Origin: an uncultured Chloroflexota bacterium
Lineage (GTDB): Bacteria > Chloroflexota > Anaerolineae > Anaerolineales > Anaerolineaceae
NCBI GenBank assembly: GCA_902774215.1
Contig: CACYHU010000029.1
Coordinates: 1 to 64,000 of the forward strand
Length of the DNA: 64,000 nt
Direction: 5' to 3'
The notes below the pieces were generated by a model, which was given only the letters and a program-made list of their open reading frames with translations, did no database searches and was not told the origin of the DNA. Shown here piece after piece: positions 38,292-48,479 of the stretch. The position numbers were made by a program, and so were the translations under genes. The first letter of the stretch is position 1; the number at the start of each line of letters is the position of its first letter.

Positions 38292-38720
38292 CTATGCCCT
38301 TGACACCAGTAACTCCAGCGCCTCAATATAAGATCCGAAGCCTTTGCCCATAAATGTCGCGATGCACGCCTGACGGATATAGGAAACCTGACGGAATTCA
38401 TCGCGTGATTTCACGTCGGACATGTGTACTTCAACGGTCGGAATGCCGACCGCCTTCACCGCATCCAGGATCGCGACGGAAGTATGTGTATATGCAGCAG
38501 GGTTAATGATAATTCCGTCCGTATCGGGATAAGCCTGCTGGATAGCATCCACCAAATCGCCTTCGTGATTGGATTGCATGAAAGAGATCTCCACGCCCAG
38601 TTCATCAGCCTTTTTCTTTAAGGTTTCCACCAGGTCTTCATAAGTCTGTCTCCCGTAAATATCCGGCTCACGCAGCCCGAGCAGGTTCATATTCGGTCCA
38701 TTAATCACAAGTATTTTCAT
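38292..38720 (-). CDS. aroQ: 3-dehydroquinate dehydratase, type II
   Basis: 142 residues. Converts 3-dehydroquinate to 3-dehydroshikimate. Motifs: LVINGPNMNLLGLREPDIYG (with active-site Tyr), FMQSNHEGDLVDAI, INPAAYTHTSVAILDA, and VEVHMSDVKSRDEFRQVSYI. Its start overlaps the end of aroE-aroK by 20 nt. Last gene of the six-gene aro operon. Confidence 0.96.
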   Translation of the reverse strand: MKILVINGPNMNLLGLREPDIYGRQTYEDLVETLKKKADELGVEISFMQSNHEGDLVDAIQQAYPDTDGIIINPAAYTHTSVAILDAVKAVGIPTVEVHMSDVKSRDEFRQVSYIRQACIATFMGKGFGSYIEALELLVSRA

Positions 38721-39945
38721 TGAAATCCCTCCAAATCATTTCGACCGTGTCCTGAACAGATCCGTTGTTGTTGACCGGAACATCCCGGAAAGCTTCATAC
38801 AGCGGAGCCCGCTGCCGGTGAAGTTCAATCGCCGGTATCTTTTGGGAGATCGGACGTCCGTCGATTGGCAGCAGTGAAAGATCCCGCTCAAGCTGATAAA
38901 TACGCCCATTCTGATGAAGCGGAGCGTAATTCTCCTCTCTGGTGACAACACCTCCTCCGGTCACGATGATCTTTCCCGTCTCTTTTCCGGCTTTCCGCAC
39001 CATCTCCGTCTCAATTTTCCGAAATCCGGTTTCGCCGTCACTTTTAAATATCTCCGGAATGGAACAGCCGGCGCTTTTTACGATCTCTGCATCGATATCG
39101 ATCATTTCCCGCCCGATTTTTTCGGCCAGTGCTCTCCCGACTGTCGTCTTTCCGCTTCCCGGCATACCGATCAGGACAATGTTTGTCATTTTCCGGCGGA
39201 GCATAGCGGTAATGCGCTCGATTTCTCCCTCATCGATCCTGCGGTCAAAAAATTTTTCCTCAGCTGCCACTGCCTGTGCCACCAGCATCGGCAAACCGCC
39301 GCTGTGAGGGATCCCCGACCGCTCCGCCTGCATCAGCAGCGCGGTACGCGCGGGATTATAGACCACATCCAAAACCCCTTTCAGCCCGGCAAAGATGCCC
39401 AAATCTGTCAGACACTCACCGTTATGGGGATACATCCCGACCGGAGTCGTATTGATCAGCACATCCGCATTCCGGTGATTGGAAAGATTATCATAGTTAT
39501 CCTTCCCGGAACGGGAAATGACCACAATCTCACGGGCGCCTTCCGCTTTAGCAACCGCCCGCGCAGTGAGAGATGTTCCTCCGGAACCGAGAATGACGAC
39601 CTTCGCGTCCCGGAAGCTGATCCCGGAACGTTTAGCGATATAAGACAAACCTGCAGCGTCGGTATTATATCCTCTCAGATTACCTTCTGCGTCAGGTACC
39701 AGAGTGTTGACACTGCCGATCGCTTCAGCGTAAGGATCGATCGAAGCACACAGGGAAATTACTGCCTTTTTATAGGGGATGGTCACATTCAACCCGCCGA
39801 TGGGATTATTTGTCAAAAATGATTCCAGTTCATCCGGTCTCAGCTCATATAACCGGTACGCTTCACATCCCAGCGCATGATGAATAGGGACCGACCAGCT
39901 GTGCTTAAGCGTTTCCCCGATCAGGCCATATATTTTCTCACTCAT
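38701..39945 (-). CDS. aroE-aroK: Fused shikimate dehydrogenase-shikimate kinase
   Basis: 414 residues. Residues 1-250 are AroE (HSWSVPIHHA, GLNVTIPYKKAV with catalytic Lys, GYNTDAAGL, VILGSGGTSLTARA, INTTPVGMYP). Residues 253-414 are AroK (VLIGMPGSGKTTVGRALA Walker A, DIDAEIVKSAG, GETGFRKIETEM, VTGGGVV, DGRPIS). The linker is minimal and an internal Met253 marks the old kinase start. The fusion carries out two successive steps to shikimate-3-phosphate. The ATG at 39945 overlaps the aroC stop (ATGA), so the two are coupled. Confidence 0.94.
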   Translation of the reverse strand: MSEKIYGLIGETLKHSWSVPIHHALGCEAYRLYELRPDELESFLTNNPIGGLNVTIPYKKAVISLCASIDPYAEAIGSVNTLVPDAEGNLRGYNTDAAGLSYIAKRSGISFRDAKVVILGSGGTSLTARAVAKAEGAREIVVISRSGKDNYDNLSNHRNADVLINTTPVGMYPHNGECLTDLGIFAGLKGVLDVVYNPARTALLMQAERSGIPHSGGLPMLVAQAVAAEEKFFDRRIDEGEIERITAMLRRKMTNIVLIGMPGSGKTTVGRALAEKIGREMIDIDAEIVKSAGCSIPEIFKSDGETGFRKIETEMVRKAGKETGKIIVTGGGVVTREENYAPLHQNGRIYQLERDLSLLPIDGRPISQKIPAIELHRQRAPLYEAFRDVPVNNNGSVQDTVEMIWRDFNENTCD

Positions 39946-41024
39946 GCCTGACCTCCGATCAAAAGATCCAGCAATACCAGTGCCGTAACAGCCTCGATGA
40001 CCGGGACTGCCCGGATAGCGATGCATGGATCATGACGGCCGTGGATCTCTATTTCAGTTTCTTTCATTTGAGAAAGCGAGATGGTTTTTTGAGCTTTCGC
40101 GATAGAGGCTGTAGGCTTCATCGCCACCTGTACGATCAGCGGCATTCCGTTCGTGATTCCGCCCTGTATGCCTCCGGAATTATTGGTTTCCGTTCGGACC
40201 ACACCGTCTTCAATAATGAATGGGTCATTATGGGCTGAACCGCTCATGGAAACACAGTCAAAACCGGAACCGAACGAGACGCCTTTAACGCCCGGAATTC
40301 CGAATAAAGTAGCGGAAAGCATGCTTTCTACACCTTCAAACATCGGGGCCCCCAGCCCGGCAGGCAGACCGACTGCCGTACATTCCACAGCGCCGCCGAC
40401 AGAATCTCCCTCACCGGCTGCCTGCTGAATTATCTGCTGCATCATGATCCCCTTTTCCCCGTCAATAACGGGGAACATCATCGCATTCAGCATATCCAGC
40501 AGTTCTTCATCAGGCTGAACGGGAAACCGCACATCCTCTACACCGCCGATATTGGATAAATGAGCCCCGATCCGGATACCCTTTCGCGCCAGTATCTGGA
40601 TCGCGATATTGCCGGCAGCACAGAGAGGAGCAGTGAGCCGTCCCGAAAAATGTCCGCCGCCGCGCATATCCGCTGCGCCATGCCATTTCACTGCGGCAGT
40701 ATAATCCGCGTGAGAAGGGCGGGGTGTGTCATCAAACCCCCTGTAATCTCCGGACCGCTGATTGGTGTTGCGGATGACAGCCGCAAAAGGCGAGCCTGTC
40801 AGTACATTATCACGGATCCCGCTGATAAATTCCGGCAAATCAGCTTCTTTCCGGGAAGTGGTCAGTCTGCTGTTTCCGGGAGCTCTTCGTGACATAAAAA
40901 AAAGAAGTCTGTCCATATCAACAGTCTCACCCGCCGGGAAACCGTTTACCACGACGCCGATTCCCGGACCGTGAGATTCACCAAACACACTGACCCGCAG
41001 ATTTTTCCCGAATTCAGAGGACAT
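39942..41024 (-). CDS. aroC: Chorismate synthase
   Basis: 360 residues. Turns 5-enolpyruvylshikimate-3-phosphate into chorismate using reduced FMN. Motifs: VFGESHGPGIGVVVNGFPAG, SRRAPGNSRLTTSRKEAD, RPSHADYTAAVKW, DMRGGGHFSGRLTA, SGSAHNDPF and TNNSGGIQGGITNGMPL. Overlaps aroA by 11 nt. Confidence 0.97.
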   Translation of the reverse strand: MSSEFGKNLRVSVFGESHGPGIGVVVNGFPAGETVDMDRLLFFMSRRAPGNSRLTTSRKEADLPEFISGIRDNVLTGSPFAAVIRNTNQRSGDYRGFDDTPRPSHADYTAAVKWHGAADMRGGGHFSGRLTAPLCAAGNIAIQILARKGIRIGAHLSNIGGVEDVRFPVQPDEELLDMLNAMMFPVIDGEKGIMMQQIIQQAAGEGDSVGGAVECTAVGLPAGLGAPMFEGVESMLSATLFGIPGVKGVSFGSGFDCVSMSGSAHNDPFIIEDGVVRTETNNSGGIQGGITNGMPLIVQVAMKPTASIAKAQKTISLSQMKETEIEIHGRHDPCIAIRAVPVIEAVTALVLLDLLIGGQA

Positions 41025-42306
41025 GGCAGTCTCCTTTCACAGAAGCAAAATCCTCAAAGAAAGTGGGATAGGATTTATTCACCGCCTCCGCGCCGTGAAT
41101 AATGACCGGTTCCTCACAGATAGAAGAAGCAACAGCCCCTGCCATCACGATACGGTGATCATTCATGGCATCCACCGTACCGCCGCGCAGGGCTCCCACG
41201 CCATGAACGATGAGCTTGTCTTCCTCTGTCTCGACACTGCCGCCAAGTGCGCGGATCATTGCCGCGGTGGATGTGATACGGTCGCTTTCCTTGAGACGAA
41301 GCCGTGCAGCATTGGTAAATACCGTCTCCCCTACCGCTATACAGCCGACGATTGCTAAATAGGGCAGCAGATCCGGCGTCTCATCAATATCGATGACCGT
41401 ACCCTGCAGGATCCCGGCCGCGGTCCGCAGTCCTTCCTTTGATGCGGAAATGCCTGCACCGAATTGTTCCAGAAAACGCAGGATATTGCGGTCCCCCTGG
41501 CAGGAATCCGGAAGCAGGGCTTTGCAGCGGATGTCATTGCCTTCCCGCAGCATTGAAGCAGTCAGGAAAGCAGCTGTATTGGACCAGTCACCGCCTGCGG
41601 GGATATGTTCGGGACTCTTATATGACGTATGTTCCGCAAGCTGCCATACACCATCCTTCTGCAGCACATCGACGCCAAAAGAAGACATCACCTGTGTGGT
41701 GATATCAATATAACCTGAAGAAACCAGCGGTGTTGTCAGCCGGATGGAGGTCTTTTCTTCCAACAGCGGCAGCATCAGCAGCAGACCGGTCAGGTATTGT
41801 GAACTGATGTTCCCGGGAATTTCATAAACACCGCCATTGGGACGCCCGGAAATGGAAAATGGAAGCGTCTCCCCGGAAAATTCAACGCCATGGGCTTTCA
41901 GCGCATCCGAAAGTCCCGCTATCGGCCGCTCCGGCAGCCTTCCGCCGCCTGAAAAAGAAGCCTTTCCGCAGACAGCTGCTGCGATCGGCAGCATAAAACG
42001 GAAAGTTGATCCGCTTTCCATGCAATCCAGCACAGGCTCAGCGGCGGCAGATCCCTTCAAAACGGGAATGACCCGGATCATACCGGACTTCATCTCACAT
42101 TTTGCTCCGATAGCATCAAGACAGGCAATCGTTGCCTGTATATCCTTCGGAAGCAAATGTTTTCCGTCATAAGCAGAACCGGATACCTGTATGTCTGTCG
42201 GACGGTCCGCAAACGCAGCACAGATCAGCATACGGTGCAATTCAGATTTGGATGAGATCGCTTCAAGCGTTCCGGTCAGGGGTCTCGGATTGATTTGTAT
42301 GTCCAT
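41014..42306 (-). CDS. aroA: EPSP synthase (3-phosphoshikimate 1-carboxyvinyltransferase)
   Basis: 430 residues. Joins shikimate-3-phosphate and PEP. Recognised by ISSKSELHRMLICAA (Lys/Ser/Arg), CMESGSTFRFMLPIAA, the GGGRLPERPIAGL block, SSQYLTGLLLMLPLL, GGDWSNTAAFL, RLRLKESDRITSTAAMI, and MNDHRIVMAGAVAS. Short class II-like divergence from the E. coli form. ATG at 42306 with GGAG 8 nt upstream and 4 nt after aroB. Confidence 0.95.
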   Translation of the reverse strand: MDIQINPRPLTGTLEAISSKSELHRMLICAAFADRPTDIQVSGSAYDGKHLLPKDIQATIACLDAIGAKCEMKSGMIRVIPVLKGSAAAEPVLDCMESGSTFRFMLPIAAAVCGKASFSGGGRLPERPIAGLSDALKAHGVEFSGETLPFSISGRPNGGVYEIPGNISSQYLTGLLLMLPLLEEKTSIRLTTPLVSSGYIDITTQVMSSFGVDVLQKDGVWQLAEHTSYKSPEHIPAGGDWSNTAAFLTASMLREGNDIRCKALLPDSCQGDRNILRFLEQFGAGISASKEGLRTAAGILQGTVIDIDETPDLLPYLAIVGCIAVGETVFTNAARLRLKESDRITSTAAMIRALGGSVETEEDKLIVHGVGALRGGTVDAMNDHRIVMAGAVASSICEEPVIIHGAEAVNKSYPTFFEDFASVKGDCHVL

Positions 42307-42310
42307 AAAT

Positions 42311-43375
42311 TTATCTCCAGCCTGCGGTGAAAACTTCAAGTAACTGTTCCCGGGTCACTTCACGCATAACACAATGGCCAATTGCCTCAGGCATGATGAT
42401 AGTGATCAGTTTTCCGGAGCGTTTTTTATCCGTAAGCGCGGCTTCAAGCAATTCCTCCGGTTCAAAATCCGTAGTAACAGGAAGCCGGTAATCCTTGAGC
42501 AGTGATTCTATATCCTCACTCAGCGGTTCGGTGCTCCAGGAAAGCGCGTCTGCCGCCCGCGCCATCATAGCTGTTCCAATGGCGACCGCACTGCCATGTG
42601 AAATGGAATAATTACTGCATTTTTCAATGGCATGTCCGGCAGTATGGCCGAGATTCAGAAGCTTGCGTTCACCCTGTTCTTTTTCATCCCGCTCCACAAC
42701 ACCGCCCTTGTAAGCGATGCAGCGGGCGATGATCTGGGAAAGGCGCCCGTCCTCAGGGCCTTCCTGTAAAAGCTCGTATAATTCCTTGCCATCCAGAATA
42801 CCGGTCTTGATCGCTTCAGCACAGCCATCCGCGAACACTTCGGGCGTAAGCGTCTCAAGTGTATCGGTGTCACAAAGCACCAGCGAAGGCTGGTGGAAAA
42901 CACCGGCAAGGTTTTTTCCCTGAGGCAGATCGACCGCACATTTGCCACCGACAGAAGAATCAACCATGGAAAGAACTGTTGTCGGGATCTGGACAAAGGG
43001 GATCCCCCGCATGTAGCATCCCGCCGCGAATCCCGAGATGTCACCACAGACACCCCCGCCGAGGGCGATGACAAAATCCTTTCGTGTGAGATGAGCATCG
43101 GCAAGCGCGTTCATTATCCTGCCAAAGGTTTCCAGTGTTTTTCGTTCCTCTCCGGCCGGGAAAATAAAACTGCTGACCGTCAGTCCTGCCGCCTCACAGG
43201 ATGATATGACCTTATCCAGATAAAGCGGAGCGACATTCGTCTCAGAAATGATCATGCAGCTCCGCTGCGGAAAAAACTCACTGATGAACCGTCCGCTGTT
43301 TTCCAGCAAACCGCTGCCGATATATACATCATAACCATCACCGGCGCTGATGCGTAAGTGCTGTCCGATCTTCAT
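42311..43375 (-). CDS. aroB: 3-dehydroquinate synthase
   Basis: 354 residues. Cyclises DAHP with NAD and a divalent metal. Motifs: ALGGGVCGDISGFAAGCYMRGIPFVQIPTTVLSMVDSSVGGK, GKNLAGVFHQPSLVLCDT, EAIKTGIL, LLNLGHTAGHAIE and SHGSAVAIG, which include the metal-binding Glu and two His. 110 nt after aroF, the widest gap in the operon. Confidence 0.97.
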   Translation of the reverse strand: MKIGQHLRISAGDGYDVYIGSGLLENSGRFISEFFPQRSCMIISETNVAPLYLDKVISSCEAAGLTVSSFIFPAGEERKTLETFGRIMNALADAHLTRKDFVIALGGGVCGDISGFAAGCYMRGIPFVQIPTTVLSMVDSSVGGKCAVDLPQGKNLAGVFHQPSLVLCDTDTLETLTPEVFADGCAEAIKTGILDGKELYELLQEGPEDGRLSQIIARCIAYKGGVVERDEKEQGERKLLNLGHTAGHAIEKCSNYSISHGSAVAIGTAMMARAADALSWSTEPLSEDIESLLKDYRLPVTTDFEPEELLEAALTDKKRSGKLITIIMPEAIGHCVMREVTREQLLEVFTAGWR

Positions 43376-43485: not shown

Positions 43486-44511
43486 TTATTCCCATTCGCG
43501 GATCGGTTGTGTTTGTACGAATTGATGCATCGTCATCAGCATACCGGCCAGTTTATCAAATTTATCCGGGCGCAGTGACTGTCCGCCGTCACTCCAGGCA
43601 TGCTGGGGATCCTGATGTACTTCAATTTCCAATCCGTCAGCACCTGAAGCCACCGCCGCCAGAGCCATGGGCGGAACAAGGAAGTACCTGCCTGTAGCAT
43701 GAGACGGATCAATGATGATCGGCAGATGGGTCAGCTTGCGCAGCACAGGGACACAGGTCAGGTCCAGTGTATTGCGGGTATAGGTTTCAAAAGTGCGGAT
43801 GCCGCGTTCGCAGAGAATAACATTGTGATTTCCCTGGGACATGATATATTCCGCGCTCATCAGCAGCTCTTCATAGGTGGCAGACATCCCGCGTTTGAGG
43901 AGGATCGGCTTGTCCAGCCTTCCGACCGCTTTGAGCAGGTCAAAATTCTGCATATTGCGCGCACCGATCTGGATAACATCAACGTCCTTGAAAAGCGGGA
44001 TCTGGCTGATTTCCATCAGTTCCGTGACGATGGGCAGACCGGTCTCCTGTTTTGCTGTCACCAGATATTGGATCCCGACTTCACCGAGTCCCTGGAAGGA
44101 ATAAGGGGAAGTCCGGGGTTTGAATGCGCCGCCGCGAAGCATGGTGGCACCGCTGGCTTTGACGGCTTTCGCGATACCCACAAGCTGTTCTTCTGATTCA
44201 ACCGAGCAGGGACCGGCCATGATCGTCAGCGTCCCGCCGCCGATCTGTGTGTTTCCGACCGGAATAACGGTATCCTCCGGATGGAATTTACGGTTTGCGT
44301 CTTTATATGGTTCAACAATTCGCTTTACATCCTCAACAATATCCAGCGCGGCAATAAGTCCGATGTCCAGCGAGGCGGTATCACCGACAAGTCCGAAGAC
44401 CGTTTCATTGACACCGATGGATTTATGTACAGATATTCCTTTGCCTTCCAGCCAGGAAATAAACCCCTGAACCTGCTCGGGATTGGGATTCTTTTTCAAT
44501 ATAACGATCAT
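43486..44511 (-). CDS. aroF: DAHP synthase with N-terminal ferredoxin-like regulatory domain
   Basis: 341 residues. First committed step of aromatic biosynthesis: PEP + erythrose-4-phosphate. Residues 1-70 form a ferredoxin-like domain ([25 protein letters not shown]), which in Thermotoga-type enzymes mediates Tyr/Phe feedback inhibition. The barrel shows [50 protein letters not shown] and the metal-site [20 protein letters not shown] site before the ATG. Expression is probably controlled by the upstream attenuator. Confidence 0.96.
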
Positions 44512-44526
44512 AAGGCCTGTCTCCTA

Positions 44527-44557
44527 TAAAAAAGGCCTGCAGTTCCGGCTGCAGGTC
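44527..44557 (-). terminator. Attenuator terminator before aroF
   Basis: On the minus strand CCTGCAG-CCGGAA-CTGCAGG (44545-44555 region with partner 44535-44541) is followed by CCTTTTTTATA. It lies only 16 nt before the aroF ATG and therefore cannot be the end of another gene; it is a leader terminator. Confidence 0.9.
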
Positions 44558-44609
44558 TTTCTCCTTTGTGAATTGATCTCTTCCGAGGCATCCTTTACAG
44601 CCAAACCTT

Positions 44610-44678
44610 TCAATGCTCTGTATAAAAATATCCAAAGCTGAAATAATAAGACCGGGCGGTAAAGGTATTTCGATACAT
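44610..44678 (-). CDS. aroL-leader: Phe/Tyr-rich leader peptide of the aro operon
   Basis: A 22-codon frame with an AGAGGA site 9 nt before its ATG. Five Tyr and four Phe fall among 22 residues, concentrated in SYYFSFGYFY (codons 10-19); there is no Trp. The stop is 98 nt before aroF. Ribosome stalling for lack of charged tRNA-Tyr or tRNA-Phe would disturb the segment 1:2 pairing and favour the antiterminator. Too short for standard gene finders. The symbol is descriptive only. Confidence 0.88.
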   Translation of the reverse strand: MYRNTFTARSYYFSFGYFYTEH

Positions 44679-44868
44679 TCTTTCGAGTCCTCTTGTTCAG
44701 ATGTCTATAGCTTACCACTTTTTGCTGAAAAATCAAAGAAATCAGAAGTTTTTCCCACGATTTTATGACAAGAAGCTGTCCTGCGCCGCCGGTTACTGAA
44801 CATCTGCAGAATTTCGTACAAATATGATACAATAACCGTACTAAATTTTGGGGAATATGTCTATAACC

Positions 44869-46858: not shown

Positions 46859-48479
46859 ATGCGAAAAATGTTATCATTTCCAAAAGTGTTGTTTGCAGTC
46901 CTTGCTGTGCTTTTTTTCTGTCTTCCAGTATTGAAGATACCCTCTGTCCAGGCTGCGGATATGTTATTGGTTAAAACCAAACTCGACATATTCAGCATCT
47001 CCGAAGATGAATATCTCAGAAATAATTCAGATACAAAATTTCCTCTGGACAGTCTGAAAAATAATGAATATGTTTCATTTTCATTTGAACTGAAGAACAA
47101 TGCTTCCACGCCTTATACTATCAACTCAATGTATGTTACGGTAAACAGAGTAGAAAAGATACGCTGGGACCCGGTCGTTGTCCCCGCAAAAACAACTTTA
47201 AACTACCATTTAAATTTTAAATCCATGCAAGAATTCGGAAAGGGAACCTTTACTGTCTCTCTATTTATAAATGAGAAAAAAGCGGGAATGTTATTGGTTA
47301 AAACCAAACTCGACACATTCAGCATCTCCGAAGATGAATATCTCAAAAATAATTCAGGTACAAAATTTTCTCTGGACAGTCTGAAAAATAATGAATATGT
47401 TTCATTTTCATTTGAACTGAAGAACAATGCTTCCACTCCTTATACTATCAGCTCAATGTATGTTACGGTAAACAGAGTAGTAAAGATGCGCTGGGACCCG
47501 GTCGTTGTTCCCGCAAAAACAACTTTAAACTACCATTTAAATTTTAAATCCATGCAAGAATTCGGAAAGGGAACCTTTACTGTCTCTCTATTTATAAATG
47601 AGAAAAAAAGGTACAACATTTGCTCTGGACAGTCTGAATGATAATGAATATGTTGCATTTGCCTTTGACCTGAAGAATGATGGATCCACGCCTTATAGAA
47701 TCAACTCAATATATGTTACGGTAAACAGAGAAGAAAAAATACGCTGGGTCCCAACTGTTATACCCGCAAAAACAACTTCATACTATCATTTTGATTATAA
47801 TTATATGAAAGAATATGGAAAGGGAACATATCTTGTCTCTCTTTATATAAATGATAAGAGAGTAGACTCAAAGACCTATTTGTTTACCGGGAGCAAAAAT
47901 ATTACCAATAACACCGGAAATACCGTCCCTTCATCGTTCTCAGGTTTTATCGAGGGATTGAAAAGAGATGGTGTTATCAAAGGGAACGGAACAGTCACAA
48001 ATCATGACGATTTCACGAACGAGTGGGCTCAATTGGGCTGGTACCAATGGTATCATATGGATAACTCGAACCGTTTTGTTTTGGGAGCACATGTGTCCTG
48101 GGATTCTGCTTCCCTGACCCCGAATACTTTTGATTCAGGCTGCGGAGTGATTTTCAATGCAGGTCAGAACAGCGTAGATAATCATCTTCTCGCATCTGTC
48201 CGCATGGATGGTTTGATCTACATTAACGGATTCCGCAACAGGAATTGGTTATCTTACGGTAATTATCGCTATGGATCGCCTTCCACGAAGGGTGAAGCCG
48301 ATTTTGCGCTAGTCGTCGATAATGACAAGGCATCCATCTATATTAATGGAAACCGTATCGTTCGGAAAGCAGAACTTCCGGTCATGGGAGACGAGATCGC
48401 CTTATGTACACTTTCGGGCACCAATCTGGATTATGGGACCCGCTGCACATGGAAAGATTTCTTCGTTTATAAGTGGTAA
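46859..48479 (+). pseudogene. Secreted tandem-repeat protein interrupted by A6-to-A7 frameshift
   Basis: The first frame (46859-47641) has a signal peptide (cleavage near VQA-AD) and two 109-residue repeats (LLVKTKLD.FSISEDEYL.NNS.TKF.LDSLKNNEYVSFSFELKNNASTPYTI...). The second frame (47598-48479) carries a third, partial repeat (GTTFALDSLNDNEYVAFAFDLKNDGSTPY) and a C-terminal lectin-like beta domain of about 190 residues (GSGCGVIFNAG-like, DKASIYINGNRIVRKAELPV). They are separated by a one-base shift in an A7 tract at 47593-47599. The equivalent site of repeat 1 has A6, and removing one A here gives one continuous frame. TATAAT at 46816 and an AGGAGA site precede it. Either a pseudogene, a phase-variable gene or a sequencing error. 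Confidence 0.8.
46961..47614 (+). repeat. 327-bp tandem duplication within the secreted-protein gene
   Basis: ATGTTATTGGTTAAAACCAA starts at 46961 and again at 47288, exactly 327 nt (109 codons) apart. The two units differ at only a handful of positions by eye, so the duplication is recent. A third, more diverged partial unit starts at 47600. Confidence 0.92.

Follow-up and report, generated by a model that had tools for sequence, protein, structure and literature searches.

We propose with high confidence that the aro operon aroF-B-A-C-EK-Q of the window (the whole 64,000-nucleotide stretch of DNA from an uncultured Chloroflexota bacterium that was analysed) is controlled by a ribosome-mediated transcription attenuator of the classic type, which senses charged tRNA-Phe and tRNA-Tyr. 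According to this model, the operon would very likely be switched on only at a shortage of Phe or Tyr. The leader device is located on the minus strand at 44740-44527, 5′ of the operon. Its elements and the genes behind it are as follows:

44709..44736, minus strand: tentative promoter TTGATT - 16 nt - TAAGCT with an upstream TGG (extended −10), recognized by eye
44688..44694, minus strand: Shine-Dalgarno sequence AAGAGGA of the leader ORF, 9 nt 5′ of the ATG (sequence)
44610..44678, minus strand: leader peptide ORF MYRNTFTARSYYFSFGYFYTEH, 22 codons and TGA (sequence, shuffles, relatives)
44655..44665, minus strand: segment 1 CCTTTACCGCC, codons 5-8 of the leader ORF (10/11 with segment 2, folds)
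44592..44608, minus strand: segment 2 AGGTTTGGCTGTAAAGG, starting 1 nt past the leader stop codon (pairs with segment 1 or 3)
44541..44553, minus strand: segment 3 TGCAGCCGGAACT, forming the terminator's 5′ arm and loop (pairs with segment 2 at 12/13; 2:3 complementarity conserved)
44528..44560, minus strand: intrinsic terminator (3:4) AAAGACCTGCAG-CCGGAA-CTGCAGGCCTTTTTT (sequence, folding, comparison with shuffles)
44521..44525, minus strand: Shine-Dalgarno sequence AGGAG of aroF, 3′ of the terminator (sequence)
43486..44511, minus strand: aroF, DAHP synthase (NCBIfam PRK08673 / TIGR01361)
42311..43375, minus strand: aroB, 3-dehydroquinate synthase (TIGR01357)
41014..42339, minus strand: aroA, EPSP synthase (TIGR01356)
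39942..41024, minus strand: aroC, chorismate synthase (NF003793 / TIGR00033)
38701..40026, minus strand: aroE-aroK fusion, shikimate dehydrogenase and shikimate kinase (best-match families on separate halves)
38292..38720, minus strand: aroQ, type II dehydroquinase (TIGR01088)

The leader ORF is a 22-codon frame with a good ribosome site, as the preliminary description had stated, and CAAGAGG at this Shine-Dalgarno sequence is kept in 4/5 of the closest leaders. The earlier codon totals (5 Tyr, 4 Phe and 0 Trp) were also correct, whereas the Tyr/Phe cluster comprises codons 11-19 with 4 Tyr and 3 Phe instead of codons 10-19, Tyr2 and Phe6 lying outside it. The three pairings recognized earlier were found again and are mutually exclusive. 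Pairing 1:2 joins segment 1 (44665-44655) with GGCTGTAAAGG (44602-44592) at 10 of 11 positions, pairing 2:3 joins AGGTTTGGCTGTA (44608-44596) with segment 3 (44553-44541) at 12 of 13 positions counting G-U, and pairing 3:4 is the intrinsic terminator, which lies downstream of the leader ORF and ahead of aroF, the first structural gene. The terminator core CCTGCAG-CCGGAA-CTGCAGG at 44555-44536 forms seven perfect pairs extended by AAAG/CTTT, and the T6 run at 44533-44528 ends, as had been noted, 16 nt before the aroF ATG (44511). A promoter scan of the leader yielded no consensus promoter above significance; the GTGGTAAGCT block at the tentative promoter is kept in the closest leaders.

Dinucleotide shuffles of the 300 nt upstream of aroF (200 per locus) served as the chance model. 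The best short ORF of the window contains 9 Tyr/Phe codons, against a shuffle mean of 3.4, and none of the 200 shuffles reached 9. The pairings of the window leader taken by itself were modest in this comparison (2:3 was matched in 16/200 shuffles and 1:2 in 7/200), the fold of the whole leader giving a z of −2.0. The case therefore rests on comparative conservation.

Among the 14 genomes of the genus, 10 contain an alignable full-length AroF (window included), and the Tyr/Phe leader with a terminator was found in 9 of these 10. Four genomes form a close group with AroF 91-97% identical to that of the window and leaders such as MQNNIFTAYAYYFSFVYYFTKH and MNKYSFIAFSYYFSFGYYFQSSD. The second group (B) comprises four leader-bearing genomes with an AroF identity of about 65% and a different leader, e.g. 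MDTLKFFGFYFFFFGFAYYYARKAHLNFTVCRYPEP. No Tyr/Phe leader was detected by the criteria used at the group B aroF of the genus-mate L012 (G004), which has likely lost the attenuator and might serve as a natural control. When named genomes were scanned with the window AroF, 80 neighbours were picked by AroF alone, 79 of them with enough upstream DNA. The Tyr/Phe leader with a hairpin, which at some loci was picked by energy, a choice favouring the discovery of pairings, was found in 63 of the 79 (58 Bacillota, 3 Kiritimatiellota, 1 Lentisphaerota and 1 without a phylum label), and no such leader was found by these criteria in the other 16. The Bacillota carriers are mainly Oscillospiraceae and other Clostridia; one cultured carrier is Anaerococcus hydrogenalis DSM 7454 (L103). 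These two counts of the frame together with terminator/antiterminator pairing support the Phe/Tyr leader-peptide attenuator proposed in the preliminary description. The same leader was found at 0/19 AroF genes from other genera of the window's order.

A Tyr/Phe ORF upstream of aroF that was reached in at most 10 of 200 shuffles occurred at 61 of the 89 tested loci, where about 4 were expected, and at none of the 19 loci from order-mates. The 72 leaders with a hairpin contain 299 Tyr, 314 Phe and 9 Trp codons in total, and at least two Tyr and at least two Phe codons are present in 69 of them. All leaders of the window group have Tyr or Phe at codons 11, 12, 13, 15 and 17, and most other positions drift. 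Codons 18 and 19 specify Tyr in some of these leaders and Phe in others, which is to be expected if both amino acids matter.

The antiterminator 2:3 is conserved and covaries across the leaders. Segments 2 and 3 read GGTTTGGCTG:CAGCCAAACC in the window and Oscillibacter, GGATAATTTGTG:CACAGGTTATCC in other Clostridia and GAATTTTGCTG:CAGTGAAATTC in the second genus group, and they stay complementary despite these differences between clades. In a partner-swap test with 32 divergent leaders, the own 2:3 pairings summed to −508.6 kcal/mol as compared with −385.0 kcal/mol (sd 16.6) for swapped partners, and 0/20000 permutations reached the own pairing (z −7.5). The effect disappeared once segment 2 was shuffled (mean z −0.66), so that base composition does not explain it. 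The gapless alignment of 28 Clostridial leaders on the core motif showed 88.9% paired cells for 2:3 and 20 two-sided changes against 6.8 in shuffles, a count inflated by kinship among the sequences, whereas the cross-clade swap test is independent of near copies. The covariation score of this set was matched by 0/500 shuffles and all slid registers were worse (33-57% paired). Both the Tyr/Phe frame and covarying stems, which were to be looked for in relatives according to the preliminary description, are thus kept. Pairing 1:2, the putative protector hairpin, was found at 10/11 in the window and at the level of at most 10/200 shuffles in 22 of 61 leaders, but where segment 3 ends it does not give the free minimum.

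For the window leader we infer the promoter, ribosome stalling, termination and the response to Phe and Tyr in the following way. Transcription would start 5′ of the leader ORF, with a ribosome trailing the RNA polymerase. When Phe and Tyr are ample, the ribosome would arrive at the stop codon just before segment 2 and cover this segment, and the 3:4 hairpin with the T-run would then stop the polymerase short of aroF. If Phe or Tyr is scarce, the ribosome would stall at codons 11-19, segment 1 being blocked and segment 2 left free; the 2:3 pairing would form, the terminator would be excluded and the whole aro operon transcribed. In an untranslated leader, 1:2 would form first and 3:4 would subsequently terminate.

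In folding calculations with the ribosome masked at codons 11-19 and the RNA extending to segment 3, pairing 2:3 formed, and with the ribosome masked at the stop codon only 3:4 was obtained. Untranslated RNA formed 1:2 during growth and 1:2 together with 3:4 at the T-run. Segment 2 starts a median of 19 nt past the Tyr/Phe cluster over all leaders. Since the energy model favours 2:3 over 1:2 by about 1.3 kcal/mol in the free fold at the end of segment 3, termination as the default without translation would depend on 1:2 forming first. After the synthesis of segment 4 the free minimum in this model is always 3:4, and antitermination would consequently require 2:3 to be in place before the polymerase reaches segment 4. 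The 2:3 pairing likewise forms before segment 4 is transcribed in the classic attenuation model. The stop codon lies directly before segment 2 in the window's group, while the leader frame of the Oscillibacter group continues through segment 2, so that a non-stalling ribosome would sweep this segment open. Both arrangements are compatible with the classic scheme.

The operon had been described as complete, and all six genes were verified by protein families, although the scores of the aroE-aroK fusion for both families were below the curated cut-offs. The genes of the Phe/Tyr branch, however, are both inside the operon in Oscillibacter L037 (aroF-tyrA-aroB-aroA-aroC-pheA-aroEK), whereas tyrA-pheA in the window's genome is a separate operon without a leader. 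No second leader was found before tyrA-pheA in the window's group. A group-II-intron match from Rfam inside aroB had a score exactly at the cut-off and was treated as a chance match.

AroF of the window's group (group A) is 75-76% identical to that of Oscillibacter as against 49-59% to the full-length copies of family- and order-mates. In the AroF tree, this group falls into a clade with Oscillospiraceae (96-97 starred) and the order-mates form a clade of their own (100 starred). RpoB, in contrast, places the window within its own order (100/100), its identity being 55-58% to the tested Clostridia and Synergistaceae genomes and 49% to Kiritimatiellae. Since AroF but not RpoB groups with Oscillospiraceae, the operon and the attenuator were probably gained laterally. 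On the simplest reading they probably came together from an Oscillospiraceae-like donor, although both the donor and the direction of transfer are only suggested by the comparison of sequences. An attenuator native to, or independently evolved in, the lineage of the window is unlikely. The two leader types (groups A and B) inside one genus would fit such an origin, and short ORFs can arise repeatedly, as argued by Naville and Gautheret (2010; PMC2965389). However, the closeness of group A AroF to Oscillibacter and its nesting with Oscillospiraceae, the segment 2 motif GGTTTGGCTG common to the window and Oscillibacter, and the order-mates that do not carry the leader all speak for lateral acquisition. 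A comparison of the leader DNA with plasmids gave no match.

Besides the main rpoB copy, the window's genome contains two extra divergent, near full-length rpoB homologues, one of them with an in-frame TAA (G000:C27:18862-22647, G000:C38:26851-30690 and G000:C2:8742-12584). One extra homologue was found in one genus-mate (G006:C3:97601-101440), and two other genus members searched have a single rpoB.

Gram-positive bacteria usually sense amino acids by means of T-boxes. These likewise respond to tRNA charging and have a terminator/antiterminator at their end, but unlike the mechanism proposed for the window leader they read uncharged tRNA directly without translation. Six T-boxes are present in the same genome, one of them inside the window, and aroF might also be under a T-box or another tRNA- or metabolite-binding riboswitch, with the leader ORF being incidental. 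We consider this very improbable, since neither a T-box nor any other Rfam family was detected at the gathering score at the leader in the window or its relatives, and the conserved features are the Tyr/Phe codon content and 2:3 complementarity, not a receptor structure. The search for a T-box (RF00230; T-box motif, stem I with specifier) at aroF also gave no match. The T-box leader inside the window is at 2022-2240 on the minus strand and scores above the Rfam cut-off.

The trpDCFBA operon of the window's genome is preceded by a T-box, the specifier of which was read from the alignment as UGG (Trp). The missing Trp codons in the aroF leader fit this Trp T-box in the same genome. The T-box together with the presence of tyrA and pheA in the Oscillibacter operon suggests that the Trp branch is sensed separately, control of the common pathway being geared to Phe and Tyr. 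The T-box with UGG at the specifier position before trpDCFBA is at G000:C41:3165-3407 (L003) and L170. No match to TIGR00564 (trpE) was found in any of the 14 genus genomes; the idea that the genus is unable to make Trp was dropped, trpB and the trpDCFBA operon being present.

It is hardly credible that the leader ORF encodes a Tyr/Phe-rich peptide with its own function and that the hairpin is just a weak terminator or processing site: leader peptides can work in trans, as reported for peTrpL of Sinorhizobium (PMC7298713), but only Tyr/Phe content and position and not the peptide are kept between clades, NCBIfam gave 0 matches for eight leaders and Pfam 0 for the window peptide, and the antiterminator covaries.

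The type of mechanism proposed here, leader-peptide attenuation, is old, and Phe+Tyr leaders of aro operons, as present in many gut Clostridia, seem hardly to have been described before. Such attenuation is the textbook case of Proteobacteria, and T-boxes are the customary explanation for the control of aromatic amino acid genes in Gram-positive bacteria. The enterobacterial pheA (pheL) leader, which precedes pheA, senses Phe only. This leader (RF01859) shares with that of the window a leader peptide, exclusive pairings 1:2 (putative in the window), 2:3 and 3:4 and, on the proposed mechanism, aromatic amino acid sensing; the Rfam Phe_leader model scored 17.8 bits on the window leader as against a cut-off of 55, which by that test does not make it a homologue. 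The trp, his, ilv and thr leader attenuators use the mechanism proposed here, but for other amino acids and operons and in other lineages; the ilv and thr leaders, too, respond to more than one amino acid. Another case of leader-peptide attenuation in Firmicutes is that of the Bacillus genes hisZ and hisS*, whose His leader peptides take the place of T-boxes (Naville and Gautheret 2010; PMC2965389); these leaders differ by sensing His, by their genes and by their occurrence in bacilli.

The closest prior report is that of uORFC-13-1 (Brewer et al. 2021; PMC8632094), with 24 sequences upstream of aroF from Acholeplasma and environmental samples only. The motif consists of a uORF containing one or more Phe codons, followed by a terminator, and attenuation via the Phe codons was proposed (PMC8632094). 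The window leader matches this description in position and content, i.e., a uORF and an intrinsic terminator immediately 5′ of aroF. Judged by the description, in which Tyr codons are unmentioned, it differs in its dense Phe+Tyr run and explicit covarying antiterminator, as well as in its occurrence in Clostridia and Kiritimatiellota besides the window's lineage. The literature covered, mainly openly accessible papers in which Lopatovskaya et al. (2010), where an earlier prediction would most likely be found, is cited, contained this one report on an aroF uORF; a Phe/Tyr leader of aro genes in Clostridia was not described in it. The preliminary description had suggested that such a leader may be undescribed in what looks like a Chloroflexota lineage; the leader is widespread in Clostridia and not lineage-specific.

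We consider it fairly likely that in much of the gut Clostridia, i.e., Oscillospiraceae and their relatives, the dual Phe+Tyr attenuator is one of the main regulators of the common aromatic pathway and forms a self-contained regulatory unit that moves between phyla along with the aro operon, the Trp branch being left to T-boxes. A probable joint leader-peptide switch for Phe and Tyr stands before the shikimate entry gene in dozens of gut and rumen anaerobes, and a distant lineage, that of the window, probably obtained the operon and the switch together. This predicts how the carrier bacteria would respond to dietary Phe and Tyr. Moreover, the leaders could serve directly as the covariation set of a new RNA family.

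Elsewhere in the window, two adjacent plus-strand ORFs at 46859-48479 contain near-identical repeated blocks LLVKTKLD.FSISEDEYL...NNEYVSFSFELKNNASTPYTI. They apparently represent a single repeat protein whose frame is broken near 47600-47640.
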